From the NCBI RefSeq assembly GCF_011390875.1, contig NZ_JAABRP010000038.1:1-32053 (forward strand): a DNA stretch of 32,053 nt. The letters run 5' to 3'. Made by a program: the position numbers and the translations under genes. The stretch comes from Thiocapsa sp. GTDB taxonomy: Bacteria > Pseudomonadota > Gammaproteobacteria > Chromatiales > Chromatiaceae. Positions within the stretch are counted from its first letter, which is position 1. Each line of letters begins with the position of its first letter. Below, piece by piece: positions 12,431-29,691 of the stretch. The notes under the pieces were generated by a model. The model saw only the letters and a list, made by a program, of their open reading frames with translations, was not told the DNA's origin and ran no database searches.

Positions 12431-14020
12431 ATGATCTCCCTGCTCGACTACGGCGCCGGCAATGTGCGTAGCCTCCGCAATGCCATCCATTCCCTGGGCT
12501 TCTCTTTGACCGAGATCGAGCGCCCGGCGGATATCCTCAAGGCGGAGCGGCTCATCTTCCCCGGCGTCGGTTCCTTCGGGGCGGCGATGCAGCGATTGCA
12601 ATCGCTGGGCTACGTGGAGCCATTGCGTGAGTATCTCGCCGCGGGGCGACCTTATCTCGGGATCTGCATCGGCCTGCAAGCACTCTTCGAAGGCAGCGAC
12701 GAGTCCCCCGACGTGCCCGGAATCGGGATCATCCCGGGCCGCATACGTCGCTTCGATGCGGGCGCGCTCGCTGTACCGCACATGGGTTGGAACGACGTGC
12801 GCGTGGAGCGCGACTCCCCCCTGTTCGCCGACTATGCCGGGGAGAAGCTCTATTTCGTGCATTCCTACTATGCCGAACCCACCGCCGAGAATCGGGACTG
12901 GCAGCTCGCCACGACGGACTACGGTCGGTCGTTTCTGAGCGCCGTCGAGCGAGGACGGATCTCCGCGGTTCAGTTTCACCCCGAGAAGAGTGCAAACGCC
13001 GGTTTACGGCTGCTGCGACGCTTCCTTGCCGGCGACGATCGGCCGCTCCCAACGACGACTCCGTCGAGCGATCGCAGTCCGACGCATCTGGCCAAGCGCA
13101 TCATTGCCTGTCTGGATGTGCGCACCAACGACGCCGGCGATCTGGTCGTCACCAAGGGCGATCAGTACGACGTGCGCGAGGCCGGCGAGGTCCGCAATCT
13201 CGGCAAGCCGGTCGAGCTGGCGCAACGCTACTACGAGGAGGGCGCCGACGAGATCACCTTTCTCAACATCACCGCCTTCCGTGATTTCCCGCTCGCCGAC
13301 CAGCCGATGCTCGAGGTCCTCGAACGGACCTCGGAGCGTGTCTTCGTGCCGCTCACCATCGGCGGCGGCATCCGCGCCTTTCGCGATGCCCGCGGCAGGG
13401 ACTATTCGGCATTGGACGTCGCCGACGCCTATTTTCGCTCCGGAGCGGACAAGATCTCCATCGGCTCGGATGCGGTCGAGGCCGTCGAAGGCTATCTGCA
13501 ACGCGGAACCAAAGACGGCAGTACGGCCATCGAGCAGATCGCCCGGGTCTACGGCAACCAGGCGGTGGTGATCTCCATCGATCCGCGCCGCGTCTATGTC
13601 CGCTCGCCCGAGGAGACGCACCATCACACGGTCGAGACCGCGACACCCGGGCCCGATGGCGAGCGCTACTGTTGGTTTCAATGCACGGTCAAGGGCGGGC
13701 GGGAAGGACGCGACGTCGACGCCGTAGAGCTTGCGCGGGTCTGCGAGATCCTGGGGGCCGGCGAGATCCTGCTCAACTCGATCGACCGCGACGGTACCGG
13801 TGCCGGCTTTGATCTCGAGCTGATTCAGGCCGTAAGGTCGGCAGTCGGTATTCCGGTCATTGCCTCGAGCGGCGCAGGCTGTGTCGAGCACTTCGCGGAG
13901 GTATTCGCGGCGACGGATGTCGAGGCCGCGTTGGCCGCGGGGATCTTTCACCGGCGCGAGGTGCCGATTCAGGCCGTCAAATCGTATCTCCTCGCCCGGG
14001 GGATCGGGATCCGGGCCTGA
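12431..14020 (+). CDS. hisHF: Bifunctional imidazole glycerol phosphate synthase, fused HisH-HisF
   Basis: The fused enzyme takes ammonia from glutamine and makes imidazole glycerol phosphate plus AICAR in histidine synthesis. Residues 1-205 are the class I glutamine amidotransferase, with nucleophile Cys79 in GICIGLQ and the His/Glu pair in VQFHPEKS (His183, Glu185). Residues about 220-529 are the HisF barrel, with KRIIACLDV and VVISIDPRRVYV supplying the catalytic Asps and GGGIRAF and SGAG the phosphate sites. Most bacteria encode hisH and hisF separately. Here the linker is only about 15 residues, and the barrel carries the extended segments of plant/fungal enzymes (FLNITAFRDFP, YCWFQCTVKGGREGRD). 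The frame is continuous. No other his gene is adjacent. Confidence 0.95.
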   Translation: MISLLDYGAGNVRSLRNAIHSLGFSLTEIERPADILKAERLIFPGVGSFGAAMQRLQSLGYVEPLREYLAAGRPYLGICIGLQALFEGSDESPDVPGIGIIPGRIRRFDAGALAVPHMGWNDVRVERDSPLFADYAGEKLYFVHSYYAEPTAENRDWQLATTDYGRSFLSAVERGRISAVQFHPEKSANAGLRLLRRFLAGDDRPLPTTTPSSDRSPTHLAKRIIACLDVRTNDAGDLVVTKGDQYDVREAGEVRNLGKPVELAQRYYEEGADEITFLNITAFRDFPLADQPMLEVLERTSERVFVPLTIGGGIRAFRDARGRDYSALDVADAYFRSGADKISIGSDAVEAVEGYLQRGTKDGSTAIEQIARVYGNQAVVISIDPRRVYVRSPEETHHHTVETATPGPDGERYCWFQCTVKGGREGRDVDAVELARVCEILGAGEILLNSIDRDGTGAGFDLELIQAVRSAVGIPVIASSGAGCVEHFAEVFAATDVEAALAAGIFHRREVPIQAVKSYLLARGIGIRA

Positions 14021-14043
14021 TGGGAAGGGGGCAACACAGCCCG

Positions 14044-14949
14044 ATGGTCCGAACATTCACGCATCTCCTTTTCGGCGTTTCGATCGCCGCCCTCGTCGGC
14101 TGCGCCGTTCCCGACCCGATGACCGACCCGACCTCCGATGACAGCGACGGCGGGAGCGGAAGCCTCACCCACGGCGCGACCCGCCCCCCGCAAGGCATGA
14201 GCCGGGACGATTGGTTGAGCAGGGTCGCGTCCTGTCATCTCCTGCGTGTCGGACAGAATCTCGACGTTGCCGTGACCGATTCGGCGGTGATTGCCGCCGC
14301 CGACAAATACGGCCTGCGGGTCGATGCGATTATCGAACGATCCAATCAGCTGGTCGTCGAGTACGGCTCGCGCGGACCGGCACTGCTCGCCTTCGCAACC
14401 GAATCCTGTCGGCAAGTCTCCGACGCGACCGGAATGGCCTCGACCTTGGTTCGGTTCGAGCCGGACGGGACCTTGCGGATGCATTGGCTACGCCTCGACG
14501 GCGTCGAGATCACCGACGGATTCGCAGAGAAGACCATCGGCGAGCTGCGCCGGCGCAAGGTCGTCGGCCTGGTGATCAACAGCCCGGGGGGCTCGGTCTT
14601 CGAGGCGCGCAAGCTCGGACGCTACCTGCGCACCATGGGTCTGCGCACCGCGGTCGATCAGGTATGCACCTCGGCCTGCATCGATGTGCTTGCCGGAGGC
14701 GCCGAACGCTATGTCACGCCCGATGCGAAGCTCGGGATCCATCAGAGCAAGGTCCCGAGGCGGTTCAGCAGCCATGAGGGCGGACAGCGCTACGTCGCCG
14801 ACGCCTTCCTCTATTTGCGCGAGATGGGCATCGACCCGGATGTCGCCATCGCTGCCGCCTCCGTGCCCAACAACACGATTCTTCTGATCTCGTTGTCCGA
14901 TGCGCTGCAGACCGGCCTGGTCACCGACGTGATCGAGCGCGTGGAGTAG
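14044..14949 (+). CDS. Lipoprotein with ClpP-like fold (COG3904-type periplasmic protein)
   Basis: ATG 14044 gives a standard lipoprotein signal ending in the lipobox AALVGC. ATG 14020, which overlaps the hisHF stop, would add eight residues and is less likely. The C-terminal half (about 155-300) matches the ClpP/crotonase-like fold of predicted periplasmic proteins: VINSPGGSVFEARKLGRYL, then VCTSACIDVLAGGAERYV and AKLGIHQSK. By analogy with ClpP and SppA, the Ser in CTSAC and the His in GIHQ are candidate catalytic residues. The cysteines flanking that Ser are a feature of the group. The N-terminal 130 residues are unassigned. A protease role is inferred, not shown. The short gap to hisHF suggests co-transcription. 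Confidence 0.75.
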   Translation: MVRTFTHLLFGVSIAALVGCAVPDPMTDPTSDDSDGGSGSLTHGATRPPQGMSRDDWLSRVASCHLLRVGQNLDVAVTDSAVIAAADKYGLRVDAIIERSNQLVVEYGSRGPALLAFATESCRQVSDATGMASTLVRFEPDGTLRMHWLRLDGVEITDGFAEKTIGELRRRKVVGLVINSPGGSVFEARKLGRYLRTMGLRTAVDQVCTSACIDVLAGGAERYVTPDAKLGIHQSKVPRRFSSHEGGQRYVADAFLYLREMGIDPDVAIAAASVPNNTILLISLSDALQTGLVTDVIERVE

Positions 14950-15313: not shown

Positions 15314-16180
15314 ATGGCATCTATCTTTACCGCTGTCGGTTTCATGGCCGCACTCGGGGTGCTGCTTGCCCTGATCCTGATCCTGGCGAATCGACGGTTG
15401 TACGTCTACGAAGACCCGCGCATCGATCAGGTCGAAGACCTGCTGCCGCGCGCGAACTGCGGTGCCTGCGGCACCGCGGGCTGTCGACCCTTCGCCGAGA
15501 TGTTGGTCAAGGGCGAGATCGCGCCCGGCCGGTGTACCGTCAACTCGGCCGCCATGAACAAGCTCATCGCCGATTTTCTGGGCGTTGACCTGGGCGCCGA
15601 CGAGAAGCGCGTGGCGCGGCTCGCGTGCGCCGGCGGGGCCCACGTCGCCTTCCTACGCGCCTCCTACGGCGGTCTCGAATCCTGCCGCGCGGCCGCCTTG
15701 GTCTCCGGCGGCGGCAAGGGTTGCGCCTGGGGCTGTCTGGGGATGGGCGATTGCGCCGAAGTCTGCGACTTCGATGCGATCCGACTCGACCGTCACGGCT
15801 TGCCGATCGTCGATGCCTCCAAATGCACCGCCTGCGGTGATTGTGTCACCGTCTGCCCGAAGGATCTCTTCAGCCTGCATGTGATCAGCCATCGTCTGTG
15901 GGTTGCCTGCAGGAACCTGGACCCGGGAGACGAGGGCGAGCATGAATGCGATGTTGTTTGCACCGCCTGCGGACGCTGTGAGCAAGATTCCCCCGAGGGT
16001 TTGATCGAAATTCGCGACAACCTGGCCGTCGTGGATTACACCAAGAACGCGCTCGCCTCGAAGGTCGCAATCGAGCGCTGTCCGACCGGCGCGATCGTTT
16101 GGCTCGAACCTGACGGTCGGATGCTCAAAGGAAAGGACGCCAAAAAGGTGGTCCGCAAAGAGGCATTGCCGGTGGCTTGA
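15314..16180 (+). CDS. rnfB: Rnf complex iron-sulfur subunit RnfB (long form)
   Basis: RnfB receives electrons from ferredoxin on the cytosolic face of the Rnf complex. The 288-aa product has an N-terminal membrane helix (FTAVGFMAALGVLLALILIL), a [4Fe-4S] domain beginning CGACGTAGC at residue 49, and a C-terminal multi-cluster ferredoxin region with CLGMGDCAEVC, CTACGDCVTVC (from 171) and CTACGRCEQD. Enteric RsxB is about 190 aa, so this is the longer type with extra clusters, more like those of anaerobes. It is first in the operon and separated from rnfC by the PFOR-like gene, an unusual position. The ribosome-binding site is weak (GAGCTG). Confidence 0.95.
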   Translation: MASIFTAVGFMAALGVLLALILILANRRLYVYEDPRIDQVEDLLPRANCGACGTAGCRPFAEMLVKGEIAPGRCTVNSAAMNKLIADFLGVDLGADEKRVARLACAGGAHVAFLRASYGGLESCRAAALVSGGGKGCAWGCLGMGDCAEVCDFDAIRLDRHGLPIVDASKCTACGDCVTVCPKDLFSLHVISHRLWVACRNLDPGDEGEHECDVVCTACGRCEQDSPEGLIEIRDNLAVVDYTKNALASKVAIERCPTGAIVWLEPDGRMLKGKDAKKVVRKEALPVA

Positions 16181-16322: not shown

Positions 16323-19300
16323 ATGTTCGGAAATAAGGACGAGAAGCAGGTCAAGTATCCCGGCACACGCATGGCGATGGACGGCAATACCGCCGTTATC
16401 ATGTGCGAGCGCGAAGCCTCGGACGCCGCCGGCGCCTACCCGATTACGCCGTCGACCCAGATGGGCGAGTATTGGTCCGAAGAGGTCGCCAAAGGCCACC
16501 TCAACGTGTCGGGAAACCCGCTGATCTTCGTCGAGCCCGAATCCGAGCATGCCGCGGCGGCCGTGACCGCCGGCATGTCCATGACCGGCTTGCGCGCGGT
16601 CAACTTCTCCTCCGCCCAGGGCGTGGCCTTTATGCACGAGTCGCTCTATGCGGCCGTCGGTAAGCGTCTGCCCTACGTGCTCAACATCGGCGCACGTGCC
16701 ATCACCAAGTCGAGCCTGAACGTTCACTGCGCACACGACGACTATCACTGCATCGACGACACCGGGTTTACCCAGGTCTACGGCAAGAGCGCCCAAGAGG
16801 CTGCCGACCTGAACCTGATCGCCCGCAAGATCGCCGAGTTGACCTTGACGCCCGCCGCGGTCGGTCAGGACGGCTTTCTGACCACCCATCTGATCGAGCC
16901 GTTGCTCGTTCCCGAGCGTGAGTTGATCGCCGAGTTCTGCGGTCGCCCGGACGACATCATCACCTGCCCGACCCCGGCCCAGAAGTTGGTCTACGGGCCG
17001 ACTCGCCGCCGCGTCCCCATGGTTTGGGACGTCGACAACCCGGTGTCATCCGGCTCGGTTCAGAACCAAGACGCCTACATGCAGGCCGTCGCCGCCCAGC
17101 GCCCGTATTTCTTCGATCACATCGAGCCGATTGCCGAGCAGGTGATGGACGAGTTCCATGCGCTGACCGGGCGACGCTATCAGCGCGTCGGCGGCTATCG
17201 GCTGGAGGATGCCGACTATCTCATCCTCGGCCAAGGCAGCATGCTTACCCAGGCCGAGGCAGTCGCGGACTATCTGCGCGAGACCCGTAAGCTCAAAGTC
17301 GGCGTCGTCAATCTCACCATGTATCGGCCTTTCCCGGGCGATCTCATCGGGCAGATCCTCAAGGGCAGAAAGGGCGTGGCGGTGCTCGAGCGCACCGACC
17401 AACCTCTGGCCGAAGATTTGCCGATCATGCGCGAAATCCGCGCATCCCTCACCAAGTGTCTGGAGAACGGCAGTGTGGAGAAGGGCGAGCGCCTGCCCTA
17501 TCCGGACTACGCCGTCTATCGTCAGGGCGATATGCCGCGACTCTATTCGGGTTGCTACGGGTTGGGCTCGCGCGATCTACAGCCCGAGGGCCTGATCGCC
17601 GCGATCGAGAACATGCTCCCCGGCGCCGCGCACCGGAAATTCTTCTATCTGTCGGTCGACTTCATCCGCAAACCCTTCGATCCGAAAGACGAGATCCGCA
17701 TCCAGGCCCTCAAGGACGCCTATCCGCACATCGGCGAGCTCGCACTGCGCGGCAGCGAAAACCCCAATCTCCTGCCCAAGGGCGCCATCACCGTGCGCAT
17801 GCACTCGGTCGGCGGCTGGGGCGCGGTCACCACAGGTAAGAACCTGGCGATGACCCTCTATGACTTGCTCGGTTTCGACATCCGCGCCAATCCCAAATAC
17901 GGCTCGGAGAAGAAGGGACAGCCGACCACCTATTTCCTCTCCGCCGCACCCGAGCCGATCCGGCTCAACTGCGAATACACCTATGTCGACGTGGTCCTGA
18001 GCCCGGACCCGAACGTCTTCACGCACTCCAATCCGCTCGCCGGGCTGGACCGGGGAGGGCGCTTCATCGTCCAAGCGAGCCTCGACAACCCCGAGCAGGT
18101 CTGGGCGAGTTTCCCGCCTGCCGCGCGCAAATACATCGTCGAGCACGAGATCCGCGTCTACTACATCGACGGCTTCAAGATTGCCCGCGAAGAGGCGTCC
18201 GATCCGGAGCTGCAGTTCCGCATGCAGGGCAACGCCTTCCAGGGCGCCTTCTTCGCCGCCTCGCCCCTGATGGAGCGGGCGGGTCTCGACGAGGCCGGAC
18301 TTTTCGCCGCCATGGAAGAGCAGATCCGCCAGAAGTTCGGGGCCAAGGGCGAGCGCGTCGTGCAGGACAACCTGCGCATCGTGCGCCGCGGCTTCGACGA
18401 AATCGTCGAGATCGTCGACAAACCCATGATCAGCGGTCAGCTCCTGCCCCGCAAGGAGGTCGGTCTCCCGGTTATGCTCAAGCAGCTTCCCGATGGCGAC
18501 GGCGGCATTACCGACGTACATCGCTTCTGGGAGCAGACCGGCGCCTTCTACGCGAGCGGTCGCGGCAGCGACAATCTAGCCGATCCGCACATGGCCCTGT
18601 CGCTGATGCCGGCCTCGAGCGGCGTCTATCGCGACATGACGCAGATCCGCTTCACCTACCCGAAGTACGTCCCCGAGAACTGCACCGCCTGCGGAAACTG
18701 CTTCTCGGTCTGTCCCGACAGCGCCATCCCGGGCCTAGTCAACAAGGTCTCCGACATCTTCGCCGCCGCCATCGCAAGGGTGGAGCGCGGCATGCCGACC
18801 CAGCATCTGCGCCGCGAGACCCGCAACGTCGAGAAACGTCTGCGCAAGCTCATCGATGCGGCCGGGGATGCCCCCGACATGCGCGAGCTAATGGACCGCG
18901 CGGTGCTCGAGACCCTGGCCGCCTATCAGGGCGAGCCCGAGCAGAAGGGCGTGATGGAGCATGAATTCGGCCTCATGATGCAGGCTCTCGGCGACTATCA
19001 ATTCGCCGTAACCAAGCCCTATTGGAGCAACCGCGAGAAGAAGCAGAAAGGCAGCGGCGGACTCTTCAGCATCACCGTCAACCCCTACACCTGCAAGGGC
19101 TGCAACGAGTGTATCGAGGTCTGCGACGACGGCGCCCTCGTCTCCGAGCCACAGACGACGCAGACGATCGAGGAGATGCGCGCCAAGTGGGACTTCTGGC
19201 TCGACCTGCCGACCACGGATCCGGACTTCATCCGCATCGATGATCTCGACGACAAGATCGGCGCGCTGGAGACCTTGCTGCTCGACAAGTCGAACTATGA

Positions 19301-21248
19301 GTCGATGGTCTCGGGCGACGGCTCCTGCATGGGCTGCGGCGAGAAGACGGTGATCCATCTGTTTACGGCGACTGTCTCGGCACTCATGCAGGGACGTGTG
19401 AAGCGTCATCTCGCCGAGCTCGACGACCTGATCAACCGGCTCGAGACCCATATCCGGTTGAAGCTTGCCGCCAAGATCGACCTGAGCAACACGGCAGCCA
19501 TCAGTAAGGCGGTCAACGCGCACAAGGACGTAGACCTGCGGCTGTCGGACCTCTCGGCCGAGCTGGATCAGGATCGCAGCGCCGAGCCGGTCGATCCCGA
19601 GTGGCTGACCTGGGCCACGGGTCTGCTGGGCAAGCTGCGTCATCTCAAGTCCCAATACACCGCCAGCCAGCCACGCTCGGCCATGGGCATCGTCAACGCC
19701 ACCGGCTGCTCGTCGGTCTGGGGCGCGACCTTCCCATTCAACCCCTATCCCTTCCCCTGGTCGAACCACCTCTTCCAGGACTCCCCCTCGATCGCGCTCG
19801 GTCTGTTCGAAGGCCACATGCGCAAGATGGGCGAGGGCTTCAAGGCGATCCGTATGGCGCGCCTCGAGCTCGAGCGCGGCTACAACCCGGCCGAGCACGG
19901 CGAGGCCCTGACCTACTTCGGCTGGAAGGATTTCTCCGACGAGGAATGGCTGCTCTGTCCGCCGGTCGTCGCGGTCGGCGGCGACGGGGCCATGTACGAC
20001 ATCGGCTTCCAGAACCTCTCGCGTGCGCTCATGTCCGGGCACCCCGTGAAGATCATGGTGCTCGACACCCAGGTCTACTCCAACACGGGGGGGCAGTCCT
20101 GTACCTCCGGCTTCATCGGACAGGTCGCCGACATGGCCCCTTACGGCAAGGTCGGCAAAGGCAAGACCGAGATCCGCAAAGAGATGGGGCTGATCGGCAT
20201 GGCCCATCGCACCAGCTTCGTGCTCAACGGTGCGGCCGCCAACCTGACGCACCTGCTCGAAGGCTTCATCGACGGACTCAATGCCCGGCACCCGGCGCTG
20301 TTCAACATCTACACCAGCTGCCAGCCCGAGCACGGCATCGGCGACGAGATGTCCACGCACCAAAGCCGTATGGCCATCGAGTCGCGCGCCTACCCGTTGT
20401 TCCGCTTCGACCCGGACGCCGGCACCAGCTTCGAAGAATGCTGCTCCATCGAGGGCAATCCGAACATCGACCAGGACTGGATCAACTGGACGCTGAAGTA
20501 CACCGACGAGAAGGGCGAGCCGGCCGAGATGACCGTCCCCTTCACCTTTGCGGACTTCGCGATGAGCGAAGGCCGGTTCCGTAAACACTTCCGCAAGGCC
20601 CCTCCCGAGACCTGGAACGACTCCATGATCCCAATGGCCGAGTTCCTGGACATGGACGAGGACGCGCGCATCGGACACTTCCCCTACGTCTGGGGCGTGG
20701 ACGCGAAGAATCGCTTGATGCGGGTGCTGGTCTCCCAAGAGCTGGTCGCGTCCTGCGAAGAGCGCCGTGCCTTCTGGACCCAGCTGCGCGGGATCTGCGG
20801 TTACCTCAACAAGGTCGACGTCGAGCAAGTGCGCAATCAGGCCAAGGCCGAGATGGCGCAGAAGCTGACCAGCAGCCTGCTTGCGATGGCCGGCGGTGAT
20901 GCGGGAGCGATCGCGTCCTTCGCTGGCGGCAACGGCCACGGCGGCAACGGTGCCGTGGCTGCCGGCAGCAACGGTGCGGGTAACGGCGCGGCGACCGACT
21001 GGGATGCGGTTTGGGTCGAGACCCCGGAATGCACGGCCTGCGACGAGTGCATCACCATCAATCCTAAGATCTTCAAGTACAACGCGGAGAAAAAGGTCGA
21101 GGTGATCGATCCCAAGGGCGGCTCCTACCAGGACATCGTCAAGGCCGCCGAGAAGTGCACCGCTGGCTGCATCCACCCCGGTACGCCGTGGAACCCGGCA
21201 GAGGCCGGCCTGGAGAAGCTGCTCAAGCGCGCTGCGAAGTACCAATAA
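16323..21248 (+). CDS. Giant PFOR-type 2-oxoacid:ferredoxin oxidoreductase with C-terminal ferredoxin domain
   Basis: PFOR enzymes interconvert a 2-oxoacid plus CoA with acyl-CoA, CO2 and reduced ferredoxin. The domain order is that of fused homodimeric PFOR: pyrimidine-binding domain I (GAYPITPST near 38-46), domain II, the gamma domain (VRMHSVGGWGAVTTGKNLA), two ferredoxin motifs (CTACGNCFSVCP at 787, CKGCNECIEVC at 924), then the TPP domain (CMGCG from 1002, NATGCSS at 1125, SNTGGQ at 1253, CQPEHGIG from 1333). Usual length is about 1170-1200 aa; this has 1641. Extra parts are about 80 residues between the ferredoxin motifs, about 98 helical residues between CMGCG and NATGCSS, and a Gly/Asn-rich linker (about 1536-1560) leading to a one-cluster ferredoxin-like domain (CTACDEC at 1570, Cys1612 and Cys1616). 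The frame is intact. Pyruvate is the likeliest substrate but is not proven. Confidence 0.9.
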   Translation: MFGNKDEKQVKYPGTRMAMDGNTAVIMCEREASDAAGAYPITPSTQMGEYWSEEVAKGHLNVSGNPLIFVEPESEHAAAAVTAGMSMTGLRAVNFSSAQGVAFMHESLYAAVGKRLPYVLNIGARAITKSSLNVHCAHDDYHCIDDTGFTQVYGKSAQEAADLNLIARKIAELTLTPAAVGQDGFLTTHLIEPLLVPERELIAEFCGRPDDIITCPTPAQKLVYGPTRRRVPMVWDVDNPVSSGSVQNQDAYMQAVAAQRPYFFDHIEPIAEQVMDEFHALTGRRYQRVGGYRLEDADYLILGQGSMLTQAEAVADYLRETRKLKVGVVNLTMYRPFPGDLIGQILKGRKGVAVLERTDQPLAEDLPIMREIRASLTKCLENGSVEKGERLPYPDYAVYRQGDMPRLYSGCYGLGSRDLQPEGLIAAIENMLPGAAHRKFFYLSVDFIRKPFDPKDEIRIQALKDAYPHIGELALRGSENPNLLPKGAITVRMHSVGGWGAVTTGKNLAMTLYDLLGFDIRANPKYGSEKKGQPTTYFLSAAPEPIRLNCEYTYVDVVLSPDPNVFTHSNPLAGLDRGGRFIVQASLDNPEQVWASFPPAARKYIVEHEIRVYYIDGFKIAREEASDPELQFRMQGNAFQGAFFAASPLMERAGLDEAGLFAAMEEQIRQKFGAKGERVVQDNLRIVRRGFDEIVEIVDKPMISGQLLPRKEVGLPVMLKQLPDGDGGITDVHRFWEQTGAFYASGRGSDNLADPHMALSLMPASSGVYRDMTQIRFTYPKYVPENCTACGNCFSVCPDSAIPGLVNKVSDIFAAAIARVERGMPTQHLRRETRNVEKRLRKLIDAAGDAPDMRELMDRAVLETLAAYQGEPEQKGVMEHEFGLMMQALGDYQFAVTKPYWSNREKKQKGSGGLFSITVNPYTCKGCNECIEVCDDGALVSEPQTTQTIEEMRAKWDFWLDLPTTDPDFIRIDDLDDKIGALETLLLDKSNYESMVSGDGSCMGCGEKTVIHLFTATVSALMQGRVKRHLAELDDLINRLETHIRLKLAAKIDLSNTAAISKAVNAHKDVDLRLSDLSAELDQDRSAEPVDPEWLTWATGLLGKLRHLKSQYTASQPRSAMGIVNATGCSSVWGATFPFNPYPFPWSNHLFQDSPSIALGLFEGHMRKMGEGFKAIRMARLELERGYNPAEHGEALTYFGWKDFSDEEWLLCPPVVAVGGDGAMYDIGFQNLSRALMSGHPVKIMVLDTQVYSNTGGQSCTSGFIGQVADMAPYGKVGKGKTEIRKEMGLIGMAHRTSFVLNGAAANLTHLLEGFIDGLNARHPALFNIYTSCQPEHGIGDEMSTHQSRMAIESRAYPLFRFDPDAGTSFEECCSIEGNPNIDQDWINWTLKYTDEKGEPAEMTVPFTFADFAMSEGRFRKHFRKAPPETWNDSMIPMAEFLDMDEDARIGHFPYVWGVDAKNRLMRVLVSQELVASCEERRAFWTQLRGICGYLNKVDVEQVRNQAKAEMAQKLTSSLLAMAGGDAGAIASFAGGNGHGGNGAVAAGSNGAGNGAATDWDAVWVETPECTACDECITINPKIFKYNAEKKVEVIDPKGGSYQDIVKAAEKCTAGCIHPGTPWNPAEAGLEKLLKRAAKYQ

Positions 21249-21310
21249 GCGCCCCGAGATGCGCCTCGACATGCGCGCCAAGTCGCGCAATTGAGTCGAG
21301 CGCGCCGCAT

Positions 21311-21381: not shown

Positions 21382-22728
21382 ATGGGCCTTTTCAGTCTCT
21401 TCCAACGCCATCGCACCTTCGACCACGGCATCTACCCGGTCGAGCACAAGGAGTTGACGGCCGACAAGCCGATTCGCCGGCTTCCCTTCGCACCCGAGCT
21501 GGTCATCCCGCTCGCCCAGCATAAGGGCGCGCCGGCGGTCCCCTTGGTCAAGGTCGGCCAAGAGGTCGTACGCGGCGAGCCGATCGCGCGTGCCGAGGGA
21601 TTCGTGTCGGTACCGATGCATGCCCCCGCGACCGGGGTCATCCGGGCGATCGCGCTCGCGCCGAGCGCGGACGGACCCAAGACCCAGGCCATCTATCTCA
21701 AGGTCTACCACGCCGCGAGCCAAGAGGTGCTGTACGACCTGGATCGCGACCTCGACGCTATGACCCCTGCACAGATCGTTGCGGCCGTCCAGGACGCCGG
21801 GCTGGTCGGCCTCGGAGGCGGGGCCTTCCCGAGCCACGTGAAGATGCAGCCTCCCGCGGGCAAGGTCATCGAGACCGTCATCGTCAACGGATGTGAGTGC
21901 GAGCCTTATCTGACCTGTGACCATCGGATTATGCTCGAGCAGAGCGAGGCACTCATCCGCGGGATCAAGCTCGCGCTCAAGGCGACCGGCGCCAAACGCG
22001 CGATCATCGGTGTCGAGGACAACAAGCTCGATGCGGTCGCCCATCTACGAGCGGTCATCCCGAAGGATCTCCCCATCACCGCGGAGGCCGTGGAGACGAA
22101 GTATCCGCAAGGCGCGGAGAAGATGCTCATCAAGAGCCTTCTGCGCAAAGAGGTTCCGGTCGGCGGTCTGCCGGCGGACATCGGTGTCGCGGTCTACAAC
22201 GTCGGAACACTTGCCCAAATGGGCGATCTCTTGCCGCAGGGCAGGGGACTGATCGAGCGCGTCGTCACCGTGAGCGGTCCGGCGGTCTCCAATCCGGGCA
22301 ACTTTATGGTCCCGATCGGCACACCCTTGCGGTTCCTGCTCGGACAGGTCGGGCTCGCAGAGGATCGCGTCGGCGAGGTCATCCTCGGCGGACCCATGAT
22401 GGGTATGGCCGTCGCGTCGCTCGATGTGCCTGTGACCAAGGCCGTTTCGGGTGTCGTCGCATTGGAACGGGAAGACCCCGATCTGGACCGGCGCAAGGTC
22501 TACCCCTGCATCAAGTGCGCGGAATGTCTCAAGGCGTGTCCGGTCTCGCTCAATCCGTCGATGCTCGGCGAGCTCGCGCTGGCCCGCCAATACGATCGCA
22601 TGGCCGAGGAATTCAACCTGGATCAATGCTTCGAATGCGGCTGCTGCGCCTATGTGTGCCCATCCAACATCCCGCTGACGCAGTATTTCCGGATCGCCAA
22701 ATCGATCAATCGGGACCGGCATGCCTAA
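21382..22728 (+). CDS. rnfC: Rnf complex subunit RnfC
   Basis: RnfC is the peripheral subunit that exchanges electrons with NAD(H). The 448-aa product has the N-terminal barrel-like region (HGIYPVEHKELT), the Rossmann-like nucleotide/flavin site (GLVGLGGGAFPSHVK at about 140-155, VNGCECEPYLTCD) and two [4Fe-4S] motifs (CIKCAECLKACP at 376, CFECGCCAYVCP at 416). It lacks the long Ala/Lys-rich C-terminal tail of enteric RsxC and so is of the compact type. It overlaps rnfD by 8 bp. Confidence 0.96.
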   Translation: MGLFSLFQRHRTFDHGIYPVEHKELTADKPIRRLPFAPELVIPLAQHKGAPAVPLVKVGQEVVRGEPIARAEGFVSVPMHAPATGVIRAIALAPSADGPKTQAIYLKVYHAASQEVLYDLDRDLDAMTPAQIVAAVQDAGLVGLGGGAFPSHVKMQPPAGKVIETVIVNGCECEPYLTCDHRIMLEQSEALIRGIKLALKATGAKRAIIGVEDNKLDAVAHLRAVIPKDLPITAEAVETKYPQGAEKMLIKSLLRKEVPVGGLPADIGVAVYNVGTLAQMGDLLPQGRGLIERVVTVSGPAVSNPGNFMVPIGTPLRFLLGQVGLAEDRVGEVILGGPMMGMAVASLDVPVTKAVSGVVALEREDPDLDRRKVYPCIKCAECLKACPVSLNPSMLGELALARQYDRMAEEFNLDQCFECGCCAYVCPSNIPLTQYFRIAKSINRDRHA

Positions 22729-23770
22729 GCCCATCGAAATCAGAACCTCTCCGCATCTCAAGCGGGCGCTCAGCGTCGACCGCATCATGCGCAATGTGGT
22801 CTTTGCGCTGTTGCCGATCTGTGCCTTCGCGGTCTTTCAATTCGGCCTGAGCGCGCTGCTCTTGATCCTCACCACGACGGGTGCGGCGATCGCGACCGAG
22901 TGGTTTTTCGCCCGGGCCAGCGGGCGGGGCAACACCGTCTCGGACTGGTCCGTCGTCATCACCGGCATCCTGCTGGCGCTGACCTTGCCCCCGGGATTTC
23001 CGCTCTGGATGGCGGCGGTCGCGGCCTTCGTCGGCGTGGCCTTGGGCAAGGCGCTCTTCGGTGGGTTGGGCTACAACGTGATGAATCCGGCCCTGGTCGG
23101 ACGTGCCTTCGTGCAGGCGGCCTTCCCGGTCGCGATCACGACCTGGACACCCGCGTTCGCACCCGGCCGCTTCACCGAGGTTATCCCCTCGACCTTCACG
23201 CTGCCCTTCATGCAGCCGATCCCGGTCTCGGAGTGGGTCGCGGGTCTGCAGCTCGATGCCTGGACCGGTGCCACGCCGCTCGCAATGCAAAAGTTTCAGC
23301 AGATCGAGCCGTCAGTCACCGATGTCTTCACCGGGATGATCGCGGGCTCCGCCGGCGAGACCTCCGCACTCCTGATCCTCGTCTGCGGACTCTGGCTCGC
23401 CTTCAAGCGCATGCTGGACTGGCGCATCCCGGTTGCGGTCATGGCCGGTGCGGCACTCACCGCGCTGCCCTTTTGGCTGCTGGACAGCAGCCTCTATCCG
23501 AGCCCCTGGTTCGTGCTCTTCTCGGGCGGACTCATGCTCGGGGCCTGGTTCATGGCCAGCGACATGGTGGCCTCGCCGGTCACCACCAGCGGTGTGGTCA
23601 TCTACGGGCTCTTCATCGGCATCCTGACCGTCGTGATCCGGCTGTTCGGCGGTCTCGTGGAGGGCGTGATGTACGCGATCCTCCTCGCCAACGCGGCCGG
23701 GCCCTTGATCTCGAGCTGGACACAACCGCGGGTTTACGGCGCGGTCAAGAAGACGAGGGAGACGGAATAG
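22721..23770 (+). CDS. rnfD: Rnf complex membrane subunit RnfD
   Basis: This integral membrane flavoprotein (349 aa) is homologous to NqrB. The covalent FMN site is the Thr in TGATPLA (Thr185, close to Thr187 described for Vibrio RnfD). Other family marks are the ISPHLKR-like start (TSPHLKRALSVDRIMRNV), GYNVMNPALVGRAF and MASDMVASPVT. About nine to ten membrane segments are apparent. The start lies within the end of rnfC and the stop is 3 bp before rnfG, so translation is coupled. Confidence 0.96.
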   Translation: MPKPIEIRTSPHLKRALSVDRIMRNVVFALLPICAFAVFQFGLSALLLILTTTGAAIATEWFFARASGRGNTVSDWSVVITGILLALTLPPGFPLWMAAVAAFVGVALGKALFGGLGYNVMNPALVGRAFVQAAFPVAITTWTPAFAPGRFTEVIPSTFTLPFMQPIPVSEWVAGLQLDAWTGATPLAMQKFQQIEPSVTDVFTGMIAGSAGETSALLILVCGLWLAFKRMLDWRIPVAVMAGAALTALPFWLLDSSLYPSPWFVLFSGGLMLGAWFMASDMVASPVTTSGVVIYGLFIGILTVVIRLFGGLVEGVMYAILLANAAGPLISSWTQPRVYGAVKKTRETE

Positions 23771-23773
23771 GCC

Positions 23774-24478
23774 ATGAGCATCAAGGTCGAGCTTCAACCC
23801 CAATCTCAACCTGGCGCCGGCGCGCAGGTCGCACCGAGCTGGCCGATGCTGCGCACCCTGGCCGGCATCGCGATCCTCTCGGGCCTCTTGGTCGTCCTGG
23901 TCTATCAGGCCACCAAACCCATCATCGCCGAAAACGAGCGGATCCTGACCGAGCAGGCGGTCTTCGAGGTGCTGCCGGGCGCCGTCTCGAAGGTCGACTT
24001 CGTGCTGAGCGATCAAGGCTTGGTGCCGGCGGGCGAGGGCGCCGTCGGAATCTCGGTCTTCGCCGGATTCGCTGCCGACGGACAACTGCGCGGCGTCGCC
24101 TTCCCCGGCGCGGCGCGCGGCTATCAGGACGTGATCCAGTTCCTCTTCGGCTACGATCCCGCGTGCGAATGCATCATCGGCAGCAAGGTCTTGCGATCGA
24201 CCGAGACGCCCGGGCTGGGTGACAAGATCGACACGGATCCGGTCTTTCTCGAGAACTTCGTGGCGCTCGATGCCAGCCTGAATCCCGAAGGCACCGGCTT
24301 GGCCAATCCGATCGTCCTGGTCGCGCACGGCACCAAGGCCGCCCCCTGGCAGATCGACGGCATCTCGGGCGCGACCATCTCGGGAAAGGCGATGGCTCGC
24401 GCGGCCAACGATGCCGCGGAGCGCTTCGTGCCGAGCATTCGGCAAGAGCTGGCCAAGCTCGTCGAGGCAGCGCCGTGA
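23774..24478 (+). CDS. rnfG: Rnf complex subunit RnfG
   Basis: This membrane-anchored periplasmic flavoprotein (234 aa) is homologous to NqrC. A single N-terminal membrane segment (about 27-50: TLAGIAILSGLLVVLVY) is followed by the FMN-binding domain with STETPGLGDKI and the covalent FMN site SGATIS (Thr201). A CEC pair (YDPACECIIG) precedes the TETPGL motif and is not something I expect in the enteric protein. It lies between rnfD and rnfE with gaps of 3 and 33 bp. Confidence 0.95.
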   Translation: MSIKVELQPQSQPGAGAQVAPSWPMLRTLAGIAILSGLLVVLVYQATKPIIAENERILTEQAVFEVLPGAVSKVDFVLSDQGLVPAGEGAVGISVFAGFAADGQLRGVAFPGAARGYQDVIQFLFGYDPACECIIGSKVLRSTETPGLGDKIDTDPVFLENFVALDASLNPEGTGLANPIVLVAHGTKAAPWQIDGISGATISGKAMARAANDAAERFVPSIRQELAKLVEAAP

Positions 24479-24511: not shown

Positions 24512-25174
24512 ATGGCTGAATTGCCCAATCCGCAAGAAAACCTGAGCCTGGATACCTTCCTGAGGGGAATCTGGACAGAGAATCCGGTCTTCGCGATGCT
24601 GCTCGGCATGTGTCCGGTGCTGGCCGTCACCAACTCGACCATGAACGCCATCGCGATGGGGCTCGCTACGACCTTCGTGCTGGTGTGCTCGAGCCTGCTG
24701 ATCTCGCTGCTGCGCAATTGGATCCCCAAACAGGTCCGCATTGCCAGCTATATCATCATCATCGCGACGTTCGTCACCATCGTCGACTACGGGATTCAGG
24801 CGATCAGCCTGGAGCTCTATGCCGCACTCGGCGCCTTCATTCAGTTGATCGTGGTGAACTGCGTCATCCTCGGACGTGCCGAGGCCTATGCCTCGAAACA
24901 GCGCCTGCACACGACGCTCGTCAACAGTCTCGGGATGGGCGCGGGTTTCACCATCGCACTGCTCGCACTCGGAACCGTTCGGGAGATCCTCGGCAGCGGA
25001 AGCATTCTCGGCGTCGCGCTGTTCGGAGAAGGCTTCCAGCCCTGGGTGGTAATGATTCTTCCGCCGGGGGGCTTCTTCGTGCTCGGGGCTTGGCTGCTGC
25101 TCTTCAACTGGCTACGTCTGCGCAAGGAACGCAGGGTCATGGAACAATCCGGGGTCGCCGCCAATGCAGGATGA
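24512..25174 (+). CDS. rnfE: Rnf complex membrane subunit RnfE
   Basis: A hydrophobic subunit (220 aa) with about six membrane segments, homologous to NqrD and paired with RnfA. The conserved cysteines proposed to hold an intramembrane iron centre are present: GMCPVLAVTNS (Cys34) and VNCVILGRAEA (Cys117). The stop overlaps the rnfA start by 11 bp. The N-terminal NPQENLSLDTFLRGIWTENP is typical of RnfE. Confidence 0.96.
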   Translation: MAELPNPQENLSLDTFLRGIWTENPVFAMLLGMCPVLAVTNSTMNAIAMGLATTFVLVCSSLLISLLRNWIPKQVRIASYIIIIATFVTIVDYGIQAISLELYAALGAFIQLIVVNCVILGRAEAYASKQRLHTTLVNSLGMGAGFTIALLALGTVREILGSGSILGVALFGEGFQPWVVMILPPGGFFVLGAWLLLFNWLRLRKERRVMEQSGVAANAG

Positions 25175-25754
25175 ATCGCTCTATTTCATCTTTCTAAATG
25201 CCGCTGTCGTCAATAACTTCGTATTGGCGCTCTTTCTCGGCATTTGTCCCTTCCTCGGCGTCTCGGCGAAAAAAGACACCGCCTGGAACATGGGACTTGC
25301 GGTCATCTTCGTGATGCTGGTGAGCTCCATGAGCGCTTATGGCATCAATTGGCTCCTGACCGAGCTGGACCTGCTCTTCCTGCGGCTCATCTGCTATATC
25401 GCGGTGATCGCCTCGGCGGTGCAGTTGGTCGAAATGTTCGTCAAGCGCTACAGCCCGGCGCTCTTTCGCTCGCTCGGAATCTTTCTGCCCTTGATCACGA
25501 CCAACTGCGCCATTCTGGGTCTCGCGCTCTTTCAGACCGCGAAGGAGTACGACTTCGTGCAAAGCCTTGTCTATGCACTCGGGGCGGGCGGCGGCTTCAT
25601 GCTCGCCTTGATGTTGATGGCCGGCCTGCGCGAGAAGCTCGAGCTTGCTCGCGTGCCGAGCGTCAGCCAGGGCGCGGCCATGAGCCTTATGCTGGCGGGT
25701 CTTCTGTCGCTTGCCTTCATGGGCTTCGCGGGGCTCGGAGGATCACATGGTTAA
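25164..25754 (+). CDS. rnfA: Rnf complex membrane subunit RnfA
   Basis: A hydrophobic subunit (196 aa) homologous to NqrE and RsxA, with six membrane segments. Signature stretches are NNFVLALFLGICPFLGVS (Cys28) and TTNCAILGLALF (Cys115), which complement the RnfE cysteines around the proposed intramembrane iron centre. The C-terminus is standard (REKLELARVP, then LAFMGFAGL). It overlaps rnfE upstream and the 55-aa gene downstream by 8 bp. Confidence 0.96.
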   Translation: MQDESLYFIFLNAAVVNNFVLALFLGICPFLGVSAKKDTAWNMGLAVIFVMLVSSMSAYGINWLLTELDLLFLRLICYIAVIASAVQLVEMFVKRYSPALFRSLGIFLPLITTNCAILGLALFQTAKEYDFVQSLVYALGAGGGFMLALMLMAGLREKLELARVPSVSQGAAMSLMLAGLLSLAFMGFAGLGGSHG

Positions 25755-26056: not shown

Positions 26057-26917
26057 ATGAGTGAAGCCCCGGCCGATTTGGGTCCGACGACTCAGGCATT
26101 CATTAAGGATTCCAGGCGAATCACACCCGAGAAATCCGAGGAGGTCCGCCATATCACCCTCCAGGTGGTCGACCCGGCTTTTCAGTTCGTCGAAGGCCAA
26201 AGCATCGGCGTGGTCGTTCCCGGGCCGCATCCGTTCGGCAATCCCCACCATGTCCGGCGCTATTCGATTGCCAACGCACGCAGCATTCCGGTCGACACCG
26301 GGGTCGAGCTCGATCTTCTGGTGCGCCGCTGCTTCTATGTCGACGAGGTCAGCGGTGAACGCTATCCGGGTATCGCTTCGAACTATCTTTGCGATGGGAA
26401 GCCCGGTGCGTCGTTGACCATCAGCGGCCCCTACCTCAGTCCGTTCAAGATGCCGTTGGATAATCGCGCGAACCTGCTCATGATCGGGACCGGGACCGGC
26501 ATTGCCCCGTTCCGCGCCTTCTCACAGTTGATCTACGAGCGACGCGGCGATTGGAAGGGGCAGGTTCGGCTTTATTACGGCGGCCGCACGGGCCTGGATC
26601 TGATGTACACCAACGACGAGACTACGGATCTCGCCAACTACTACGACGAGAAGACCTTCAAGGCGTTCCGGGCACTCGGCACGCGTCCTTTGATGTCGTC
26701 CTCGCAGGCATTGGAGCGCGGTCTGAGCGACAATGCCGACGACGCATTGCATCTCATCAATGAGCCCAATACGCATGTTTTCCTATCCGGATTGGGCAAG
26801 ATTGCAGCGGTCTTCGATAAGGTGATGGCGGAGCGCGTAGGGTCATCGGAAGCCTGGTCGGCGATCAAGGAGAAGATGATCGACGAGGGACGTTGGTCCG
26901 AGCTGATTTATGATTGA
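26057..26917 (+). CDS. Plant-type ferredoxin-NADP(+) reductase family protein
   Basis: The 286-aa flavoprotein would move electrons between ferredoxin and NADP(H). It has the FAD motif RRYSIAN (67-73; consensus R-x-Y-S), the glycine-rich nucleotide motif GTGTGIAPFRAF (144-155), and HVFLSGLGKI with C-terminal SELIYD, whose terminal aromatic is typical of FNR. The presence of GRTGLDLMYTNDE suggests the plastid/BoxA-type group and not the E. coli Fpr group. AAGGAG lies 12-16 bp upstream of ATG 26057. It follows the rnf genes on the same strand after 142 bp, so it may be co-expressed or have its own promoter. No ferredoxin gene is in the window; the PFOR-fused domain or RnfB could be partners. 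Confidence 0.88.
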   Translation: MSEAPADLGPTTQAFIKDSRRITPEKSEEVRHITLQVVDPAFQFVEGQSIGVVVPGPHPFGNPHHVRRYSIANARSIPVDTGVELDLLVRRCFYVDEVSGERYPGIASNYLCDGKPGASLTISGPYLSPFKMPLDNRANLLMIGTGTGIAPFRAFSQLIYERRGDWKGQVRLYYGGRTGLDLMYTNDETTDLANYYDEKTFKAFRALGTRPLMSSSQALERGLSDNADDALHLINEPNTHVFLSGLGKIAAVFDKVMAERVGSSEAWSAIKEKMIDEGRWSELIYD

Positions 26918-28608: not shown

Positions 28609-29691
28609 ATGCAGCACAGAGACAGGCAGTCGTTGGTTGCGGGCATCTCCGGCTTGGCGCAACAGGTCTACGAAACCGAGGCACCGAACCGACAAGAAGA
28701 GGCGATGATCGAGCGGCTCAACCCGCTGCTCGATGCCTTTTTACTCGAATCTCAGCCGATCGAAGCGGTCGAGGCGACCATCCTGATCGCCGATATCCGC
28801 GGGTTCACCGCGCTGACCGAATCCCATCCGCCCCAAACCATTATTCGATTGCTCAATCGATACTTCGCGCGAATGGTGGAGCTGGTCCACCGTCACGGAG
28901 GCGTCGTCGACAAGTTCATGGGCGACGCAGTGATGGCGCTCTTCGGCGCGCCGGTCCGCCGCGACGATCACCTCAAGTGCGCGCTCTCCTGTGCAGTCGA
29001 GATGCAGCAGGCGATGCTCGAGCTCAACGGCGAAAGTCAACTGATCGGAGAGCCCAGCATCTATGCCGGCATCGCCGTGAACAGCGGCAGCGTTATGGCG
29101 GGCAGCTTCGGCTCACGGTTCTACAACGAGTACACCGTGATCGGCGACACCGTCAATCTGACCGCGCGGATGGAGGGCTACAGCTTGCGCGGGCAGGTGC
29201 TGCTCAGCGATGCCAGCTACGCGTCCGCGCGCGATTACATCGACATCGGCAGCGCCAACTCCCTTTTTGTGAAGGGCAAGGCGCGCGAGATCACGCTCTA
29301 CGAGCTGCTCGCCGTCAAAGGTCAGCGCCTACTGGTCGTACCGCAGGTCGAGATCCGCCGCTCGCCGCGGGTGCTGGTGGATTTTCCGATCGCCTTCCGT
29401 CGGGTCGAGTCCAAATGCATCCTGTCGCAACGCTTTATGGGCAAGGCCAACGATCTCAGCTATTACGGGATGAATGCGGATCTGCCCCTGATTCTGCCGC
29501 CCTATTCGGAGGTCATCCTGACCTTCGTACCCGAGTTCGGCGCCGATCCGGCGACCGAAGTCTATGCGCGGGTGCTGCGAACCCAGCCGAGCGATGGATT
29601 CCACCGCACCAATCTTGAGTTCACGACGATCGACACGCCCGGGCACAGACTCGTGAAGCGATACGTCGATCAGCTCCTTTGGCGGCGTTGA
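28609..29691 (+). CDS. Class III adenylate/guanylate cyclase fused to a PilZ domain
   Basis: The 360-aa cytosolic protein has a class III cyclase catalytic domain (about 55-230). Metal Asps are in IADIRGFT (Asp62) and KFMGDAVMALFG (Asp106). The base-recognising Lys102 and Thr176 (EYTVIGDTVNLTARME) fit the class IIIb variant with Thr in place of Asp, and transition-state residues Asn183 and Arg187 are present. This subclass is commonly ATP-specific and often bicarbonate-responsive. The C-terminus (about 245-355) is a PilZ domain with RRSPR (250-254) and NDLSYYGM (281-288), the two c-di-GMP-binding motifs. All key residues of both domains appear intact. A link between c-di-GMP binding and cAMP production is inferred. 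Confidence 0.9.
   Translation: MQHRDRQSLVAGISGLAQQVYETEAPNRQEEAMIERLNPLLDAFLLESQPIEAVEATILIADIRGFTALTESHPPQTIIRLLNRYFARMVELVHRHGGVVDKFMGDAVMALFGAPVRRDDHLKCALSCAVEMQQAMLELNGESQLIGEPSIYAGIAVNSGSVMAGSFGSRFYNEYTVIGDTVNLTARMEGYSLRGQVLLSDASYASARDYIDIGSANSLFVKGKAREITLYELLAVKGQRLLVVPQVEIRRSPRVLVDFPIAFRRVESKCILSQRFMGKANDLSYYGMNADLPLILPPYSEVILTFVPEFGADPATEVYARVLRTQPSDGFHRTNLEFTTIDTPGHRLVKRYVDQLLWRR

Follow-up and report, generated by a model that had tools for sequence, protein, structure and literature searches.

The window, the whole 32,053-nucleotide stretch of Thiocapsa sp. DNA analysed here, contains a gene for a PFOR-like enzyme (PFORL) embedded in an rnf operon. rnfB lies upstream of it on the same strand, and rnfC-D-G-E-A followed by a gene for an FNR-like flavoprotein lie downstream (Table 1). 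The Rnf set rnfA, B, C, D, E and G is complete at this locus by NCBIfam matches, rnfG being below the cut-off of its own model but matched and in position. The same Thiocapsa genome also encodes a normal-size classical PFOR (C24) and a hetero-oligomeric (split) 2-oxoacid oxidoreductase (C212), and it carries three rnfC genes. Large antisense open reading frames, such as the one of 800 aa at 18888-21290 on the minus strand, were regarded as by-products of the high G+C content. A promoter and terminator scan gave signals at chance level and no more.

Other genes in the window have unusual features. The gene at 12431-14020 encodes a HisH-HisF fusion of 529 aa, in which the HisF part has about 55 additional residues, and it is conserved upstream of the same rnf locus in other Chromatiaceae. 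Adjoining it, a gene at 14020-14949 encodes a 309-aa protein with a weak Clp-protease/head-maturation-protease-like match, which is found upstream of rnfB in other Thiocapsa too. At 28609-29691, an adenylate/guanylate cyclase catalytic domain is fused to a C-terminal PilZ domain.

Table 1. Genes and protein features of the PFORL-rnf locus; positions are those of the window, residues are those of PFORL.
Feature	Position	Strand	Basis or remark
rnfB, long type, 288 aa, 20 Cys	15314-16180	+	NCBIfam rnfB models
PFORL, PFOR-like enzyme embedded in rnf operon	16323-21248	+	open ORF, 1641 aa
Ferredoxin-domain cluster motif 1, C787-C797, CTACGNCFSVC	18681-18713	+	invariant in 101 relatives
Insert 2 between both ferredoxin motifs (residues 807-905), predicted as a bundle of helices	18741-19037	+	spacing; AF2
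Ferredoxin-domain cluster motif 2, C924-C934, CKGCNECIEVC	19092-19124	+	invariant in relatives
Proximal-cluster CxxC, C1002 and C1005	19326-19337	+	invariant in relatives
Insert 1 from proximal CxxC to NATGC (residues 1013-1118), predicted as a long hairpin of helices	19359-19676	+	spacing; AF2
NATGCSS, third proximal ligand C1129	19695-19715	+	
TPP-binding motif GGDGAMYDIG...YSNTGGQ, D1221 and N1254	19977-20096	+	motif, PF02775
C1333, fourth proximal-cluster ligand	20319-20321	+	invariant in relatives
Gly/Ala-rich flexible linker, residues 1518-1561	20874-21005	+	AF2 pLDDT 28-40 over 1524-1558; conservation 0.34
C-terminal [4Fe-4S] ferredoxin domain, residues 1562-1641, C1570, C1573, C1576, C1612	21006-21245	+	Pfam Fer4_13, E=1.6e-8
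rnfC	21382-22728	+	TIGR01945, 495.8 bits
rnfD	22721-23770	+	TIGR01946 above cut-off
rnfG	23774-24478	+	TIGR01947 86.5 bits (cut-off 102); position and rnfG-family match
rnfE	24512-25174	+	TIGR01948 above cut-off
rnfA	25164-25754	+	TIGR01943 above cut-off
FNR-like flavoprotein (ferredoxin-NADP reductase / BoxA-reductase-like), probable accessory	26057-26917	+	downstream in 25/51 loci

PFORL contains the POR_N, PFOR_II and POR (gamma) domains, Pfam-recognised ferredoxin motifs and the TPP-binding domain in the PFOR order, with PF01855, PF17147, PF01558 and PF02775 all above their gathering cut-offs. This domain order, together with the TPP motif and the proximal [4Fe-4S] ligands, places it in the OFOR superfamily. 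Its best PDB sequence and fold matches are classical homodimeric PFOR/NifJ enzymes (D. africanus 1B0P, M. thermoacetica 6CIN; TIGR02176), with which it shares the domain order, the TPP motif and three [4Fe-4S] clusters with the same ligands. Unlike the classical enzymes, to which its identity is about 28 %, PFORL carries inserts of +99 and +80 residues and a C-terminal ferredoxin, and its gene belongs to an rnf operon. It falls outside the NifJ equivalog TIGR02176 (396.2 bits, below the curated cut-off of 911.35). Classical NifJ has spacings of 25 and 47 residues without a C-terminal ferredoxin, whereas PFORL has 124 and 127, plus Fer4_13.

The preliminary description stated that all cluster and TPP motifs persist. 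They are present, and in the alignment 101 of 101 full-length relatives keep T42, R125, D1221 and N1254 together with four Cys of the proximal cluster and eight of the ferredoxin domain. The four C-terminal Cys are kept in 100 of the 101, and the single exception ends at a contig edge. Because the catalytic and cluster residues are intact in these relatives, we rejected the possibility that the inserts replace catalytic elements. By alignment, T42 and R125 correspond to the Thr and Arg that contact pyruvate in the classical enzyme, and these conserved residues suggest pyruvate as the most likely 2-oxoacid substrate. Another 2-oxoacid (2-oxoglutarate, a branched-chain or an aromatic one) would be in line with the gap between 396 bits and the NifJ equivalog cut-off of 911, and with the presence of another PFOR and a hetero-oligomeric 2-oxoacid oxidoreductase in the host. 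Against the invariance of T42, R125 and the Asn of YSNTGGQ, we regard a different substrate as quite unlikely.

The two inserts were measured against seven NifJ-type PFORs, the Thiocapsa genome's own copy among them. Between C1005 and C1129 there are 124 residues in PFORL and 25 in all seven classical copies (+99), which bears out the gap of about 123 residues given earlier. Between C797 and C924 there are 127 residues against 47-48 (+80), in agreement with the earlier claim of a second insert of about 80 residues between the ferredoxin motifs. The inserts are absent from the seven measured NifJ enzymes and are not spanned by the PDB matches, so the idea that they are normal in characterised PFORs was rejected. 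We modelled residues 715-1641 of PFORL alone with AlphaFold2 (56-row alignment, mean pLDDT 78.7). Insert 2 was predicted as helices at 809-889 with pLDDT of about 90, and insert 1 as helices at 1005-1051 and 1092-1113; both lie outside the TPP core. Together with the invariant catalytic and cluster residues, this supports the earlier view of an enzyme that is likely active but structurally distinct. Insert lengths are near-constant among relatives and recur across several phyla, so the insert-bearing form is far from a chance event. The mean majority-residue frequency is 0.62 and 0.56 in the inserts, 0.77-0.80 in the core, 0.72 in the C-terminal ferredoxin and 0.34 in its linker, the lowest of all regions. 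By this measure the inserts evolve faster than the core, yet under constraint.

A third addition was overlooked in the preliminary description. PFORL ends in a single-cluster ferredoxin (the arm) on a Gly/Ala linker that is predicted to be disordered. Both the CxxCxxC...C pattern and the fold of a single-[4Fe-4S] ferredoxin of the Desulfovibrio africanus ferredoxin I (FdI) type are found in this C-terminus. FdI is its best PDB sequence match (E=1.2e-6), and Foldseek superposes the two with a TM of 0.85 and an rmsd of 0.9 over 58 columns. The AF2 model shows a confident ferredoxin domain after the disordered linker at 1524-1558. In the global fold comparison, the whole-chain TM of the half-protein is only 0.38, and for this reason the fold evidence rests on the PFOR E-values and the ferredoxin-domain match. 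Normally, low-potential ferredoxin is not bound to an enzyme, and 2-oxoacid chemistry is connected to Rnf by its diffusion. FdI is likewise a free protein in Desulfovibrio, whereas its counterpart in PFORL is fused via the flexible linker. In D. africanus, FdI binds PFOR only transiently and with low affinity (PMC10052474), which would give a tether a purpose. The arm is a better candidate than the inserts for electron hand-over to Rnf. By analogy only, the lipoyl domains of pyruvate dehydrogenase E2 are also carrier domains adjacent to a TPP enzyme, on flexible linkers of Gly/Ala or Ala/Pro and sometimes with three copies in tandem. Their fold is unrelated, and they carry acyl groups, whereas the PFORL arm would carry electrons on an Fe-S cluster.

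In a genome scan, at least 562 pattern matches were confirmed as relatives, and orthologues were found at 50-97 % identity overall. The best 80 of these (61-97 % identity) come from Chromatiaceae, Sedimenticola, Thiodiazotropha, a Solemya symbiont, Ectothiorhodospira, Rhodocyclales, Gallionellales, Shewanella, Verrucomicrobia, Kiritimatiellae, Acidobacteria, Hydrogenedentota and Bacteroidetes. The closest named relatives among the matches listed are Thiocapsa roseopersicina and Thiocapsa sp. KS1, and copies on megaplasmid records occur in Persicobacter (58 %) and Gemmatirosa (50 %), two relatives from outside the phylum. As orthologues recur in many genomes, a window-specific oddity or assembly artefact was rejected.

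Within the best 80 of the at least 562 relatives, rnfB lies directly upstream of PFORL in 72 of 73 testable loci, rnfC lies directly downstream in 67 of 67, and a complete rnf C-D-G-E-A series follows in 49 of 51. One Rnf-linked locus is without an adjacent rnfB (L105), and in another rnfB is displaced (L026). The converse also holds for the long-type RnfB (at least 285 bits). Among 229 sampled genomes of the class there are 18 such genes, and every one adjoins a PFORL gene, 12 an active form and 6 a pseudo-form. The next-best RnfB of the sample scores 168 bits, and its genome is without PFORL; in Rnf clusters without PFOR, RnfB has about 180-210 aa. The RnfC tree divides into three in the way the PFOR tree does, and the RnfC of PFOR-less Rnf forms a separate clade. 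The PFORL and RnfC distances correlate (0.88, p 0.0005), which reflects co-inheritance and not contact, as simple operon co-inheritance gives the same result. The PFORL family is therefore widespread, covers several phyla and is paired one-to-one with a distinct Rnf lineage that has the long RnfB. Genomic linkage and co-inheritance make PFORL a candidate physical subunit of this Rnf.

A second locus type in several gammaproteobacterial genomes has the order korA-korB-p840-rnfB-PFORL2-(sucC-sucD in some)-rnfC-D-G-E-A. KorAB probably acts on 2-oxoglutarate, because the succinyl-CoA ligase genes inside some of these loci fit a 2-oxoglutarate/succinyl-CoA reaction. These KorAB-Rnf loci (L113, L032, L029, L129, L130, L131, L132 and L135) carry two PFOR relatives without catalytic residues. 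In 8 of 8 cases PFORL2, a pseudo-PFOR, lacks T42, the TPP Asn and each of the four ligands of the proximal cluster, all lost from the PFOR pattern. All eight keep the eight ferredoxin Cys and both inserts (spacings of 125-128 and 119-124 residues), and PFORL2 has no ferredoxin arm of its own. p840, a half-PFOR, corresponds to the C-terminal half of PFORL; it has lost all core cluster ligands and has kept the linker and the arm. Its identity to the window PFORL is about 42-55 % in the arm and about 32 % in the dead TPP domain. In the AF2 model of p840, a disordered linker joins the arm to a folded body, and the PDB matches are to PFOR and FdI. Where KorAB has taken over catalysis, the pseudo-PFOR and the half-PFOR thus keep just those features that set PFORL apart, the inserts or the arm. 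The most likely task of these additions is therefore to deliver electrons in the setting of Rnf rather than to catalyse. This retention is the best evidence for such a role, and it lends the strongest support to a putative binding of the inserts to Rnf.

In the PFOR tree, built on 1073 insert-free columns, NifJ branches first, followed by the two-subunit PFOR-like enzymes and next by the L168 type, and the Rnf-embedded clade comes last. PFORL1 and PFORL2 group with support of 100/99, and the same group plus the L168 type with 99/98. The catalytically intact Gemmatirosa enzyme is basal or unresolved in this tree, so the pseudo-enzymes are most simply derived from active ancestors. The two-subunit enzymes (L165-L167, L170; about 680 and 560 aa) are the closest insert-free relatives and sister to the insert-bearing clade. 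They are about 43 % identical to PFORL over domains I-III, lack insert 1 (spacing 29), have a partial insert 2 (68-70), have no C-terminal ferredoxin and lie outside rnf.

The L168 type (L168:7559-12610, L169, L181, L028; genomes G265, G274, G372, G021) is a 1.7-kilo-residue PFOR with both inserts. Insert 2 is full and insert 1 is shortened (86-89); there is an additional insertion of about 75 residues after the POR_N region, and the C-terminal segment contains four Cys. This segment is weakly similar to the PFORL arm and gave no Fer4_13 match. No rnf gene lies within several kb of the loci in G265, G274, G372 and G021, and apart from G021 the genomes carry only the other Rnf lineage. The proposal that insert-bearing forms make one clade linked to rnf thus stood for the single clade; the rnf link holds for the Rnf-embedded lineage and fails for the L168 type. 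From the tree and the features of the L168-type and two-subunit enzymes, either the inserts would predate the Rnf association, having arisen together with the arm or earlier, or the L168 type has lost Rnf.

Because the L168-type enzymes bear both inserts without rnf nearby, the inserts are insufficient as evidence for Rnf binding, and these enzymes are what argues most strongly against it. The inserts may instead form a cradle for the enzyme's own ferredoxin arm; Rnf would then be recognised solely by the arm, or would not be recognised. PFORL and the L168 type both combine the inserts with a four-Cys C-terminus, and NifJ has neither, so the inserts track the arm better than rnf; insert 1 and the arm are also both missing from the two-subunit enzymes. 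PFORL2, however, has inserts without its own arm, though it might use that of the half-PFOR partner, and the weak similarity of the L168-type arm also argues against the pairing. We consider the cradle somewhat unlikely; it differs from the explanation preferred below solely in the role of the inserts and is otherwise compatible with it. Most likely, the two helical inserts provide a docking or scaffold surface that places the arm and the Rnf subunits, and binding of the inserts to RnfB or RnfC, as first suggested, is plausible.

We think it rather probable that PFORL is an active PFOR homologue which now serves a single Rnf lineage as its dedicated input/output module, by way of a swinging ferredoxin arm. 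This view builds on the anatomy and conservation of the protein, its operon linkage and co-inheritance with Rnf, and the inserts and arm that relatives without catalytic residues have kept. The enzyme would hold a TPP site, the three PFOR [4Fe-4S] clusters and a fourth cluster in the FdI-type domain. A 2-oxoacid, most likely pyruvate, would be cleaved, and its electrons would pass from TPP through the proximal cluster and the two ferredoxin-domain clusters to the tethered ferredoxin. The arm may then swing to RnfB, and so to RnfC and NAD+, contacting the Rnf subunits, so that the reaction would be linked to ion transport and no ferredoxin would have to diffuse. With equal likelihood, the arm may pass its electrons to a soluble partner or to the FNR-like flavoprotein encoded nearby. 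The chemistry is reversible. In the reverse mode, the ion gradient would drive NADH electrons through Rnf, and acetyl-CoA and CO2 would be joined to pyruvate. For autotrophs that oxidise sulfur or are phototrophic, such as Thiocapsa, we slightly favour this direction, oxidative use being nearly as likely.

An ordinary soluble PFOR may also share an rnf operon simply as both handle ferredoxin, with a free ferredoxin as carrier and the additions as structural decoration, for example for oxygen protection. Classical PFOR feeds Rnf via free ferredoxin in many anaerobes, and domain VII of D. africanus PFOR gives oxygen protection, which would be useful to the aerobes and microaerophiles among the hosts; the L168-type enzymes also bear the inserts outside rnf loci. 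However, Thiocapsa already has a classical PFOR elsewhere in its genome. Decoration would not be expected to show near-perfect linkage to one Rnf lineage across phyla, to be kept as inserts in dead paralogues within Rnf operons or to have its arm duplicated. We therefore judge the soluble enzyme unlikely. Extending the preferred reading, a dedicated PFOR module with a swinging arm, to the sister loci is more tentative. The whole Rnf branch may exchange electrons directly with 2-oxoacid oxidoreductases via tethered swinging ferredoxins, with an active PFOR docked in one sub-branch and, in the other, a dead PFOR and a dead half-PFOR serving as the wiring harness between KorAB and the pump.

If true, this would be a respiratory-type module that turns the chemistry of pyruvate, and in the sister probably of 2-oxoglutarate, directly into an ion gradient, or the reverse. 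Carboxylation or oxidation of both 2-oxoacids would then be ion-motive and ferredoxin-independent, which bears on how reductive carboxylations are powered in sulfur-oxidising autotrophs and in phototrophs, among them symbionts of bivalves and tubeworms. The pseudo-PFOR would be a clear candidate for a pseudo-enzyme retained for electron wiring.

A PFOR gene between rnfB2 and rnfC2 was noted in the Solemya velum symbiont, with pyruvate proposed as the electron donor of that Rnf (PMC4287430). This copy (L056) has the same locus type and 69 % identity to PFORL. In its passages on this gene, that paper does not describe the inserts, the tethered ferredoxin, the family distribution, the co-inheritance with Rnf or the pseudo-enzyme sisters. 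In Endoriftia, a 'PFOR-like' gene co-regulated with the dimeric OGOR korAB was treated as a possible PFOR isoform (PMC11636981). It may be PFORL2, a likeness drawn from name and co-response and not from sequence; in contrast to a PFOR isoform, the PFORL2 homologues examined here are without the TPP and proximal-cluster residues. The Allochromatium genome contains three rnf clusters whose role is unclear (PMC3368242). In the openly accessible literature, we found no account of the inserts, of a tethered ferredoxin, of the strict linkage to one Rnf lineage or of pseudo-PFOR adaptors; on a tethered-ferredoxin PFOR or a KorAB-pseudo-PFOR-Rnf system, it yielded only the Solemya sentence and the Endoriftia gene. 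A PFOR between rnfB and rnfC is thus already known from one sentence, while the inserts, the arm and the pseudo-enzyme sisters seem to be unreported in that literature.

A further variant of the arm was observed in a genome with no RnfC above the cut-off, at a locus with no rnf in the 20 kb covered, which counts against the preferred reading. There, a half-PFOR-like protein (L128:10136-13066; G234:C65), which adjoins korA (1138 aa frame) and korB, carries three tandem ferredoxin domains on Ala-Pro linkers.
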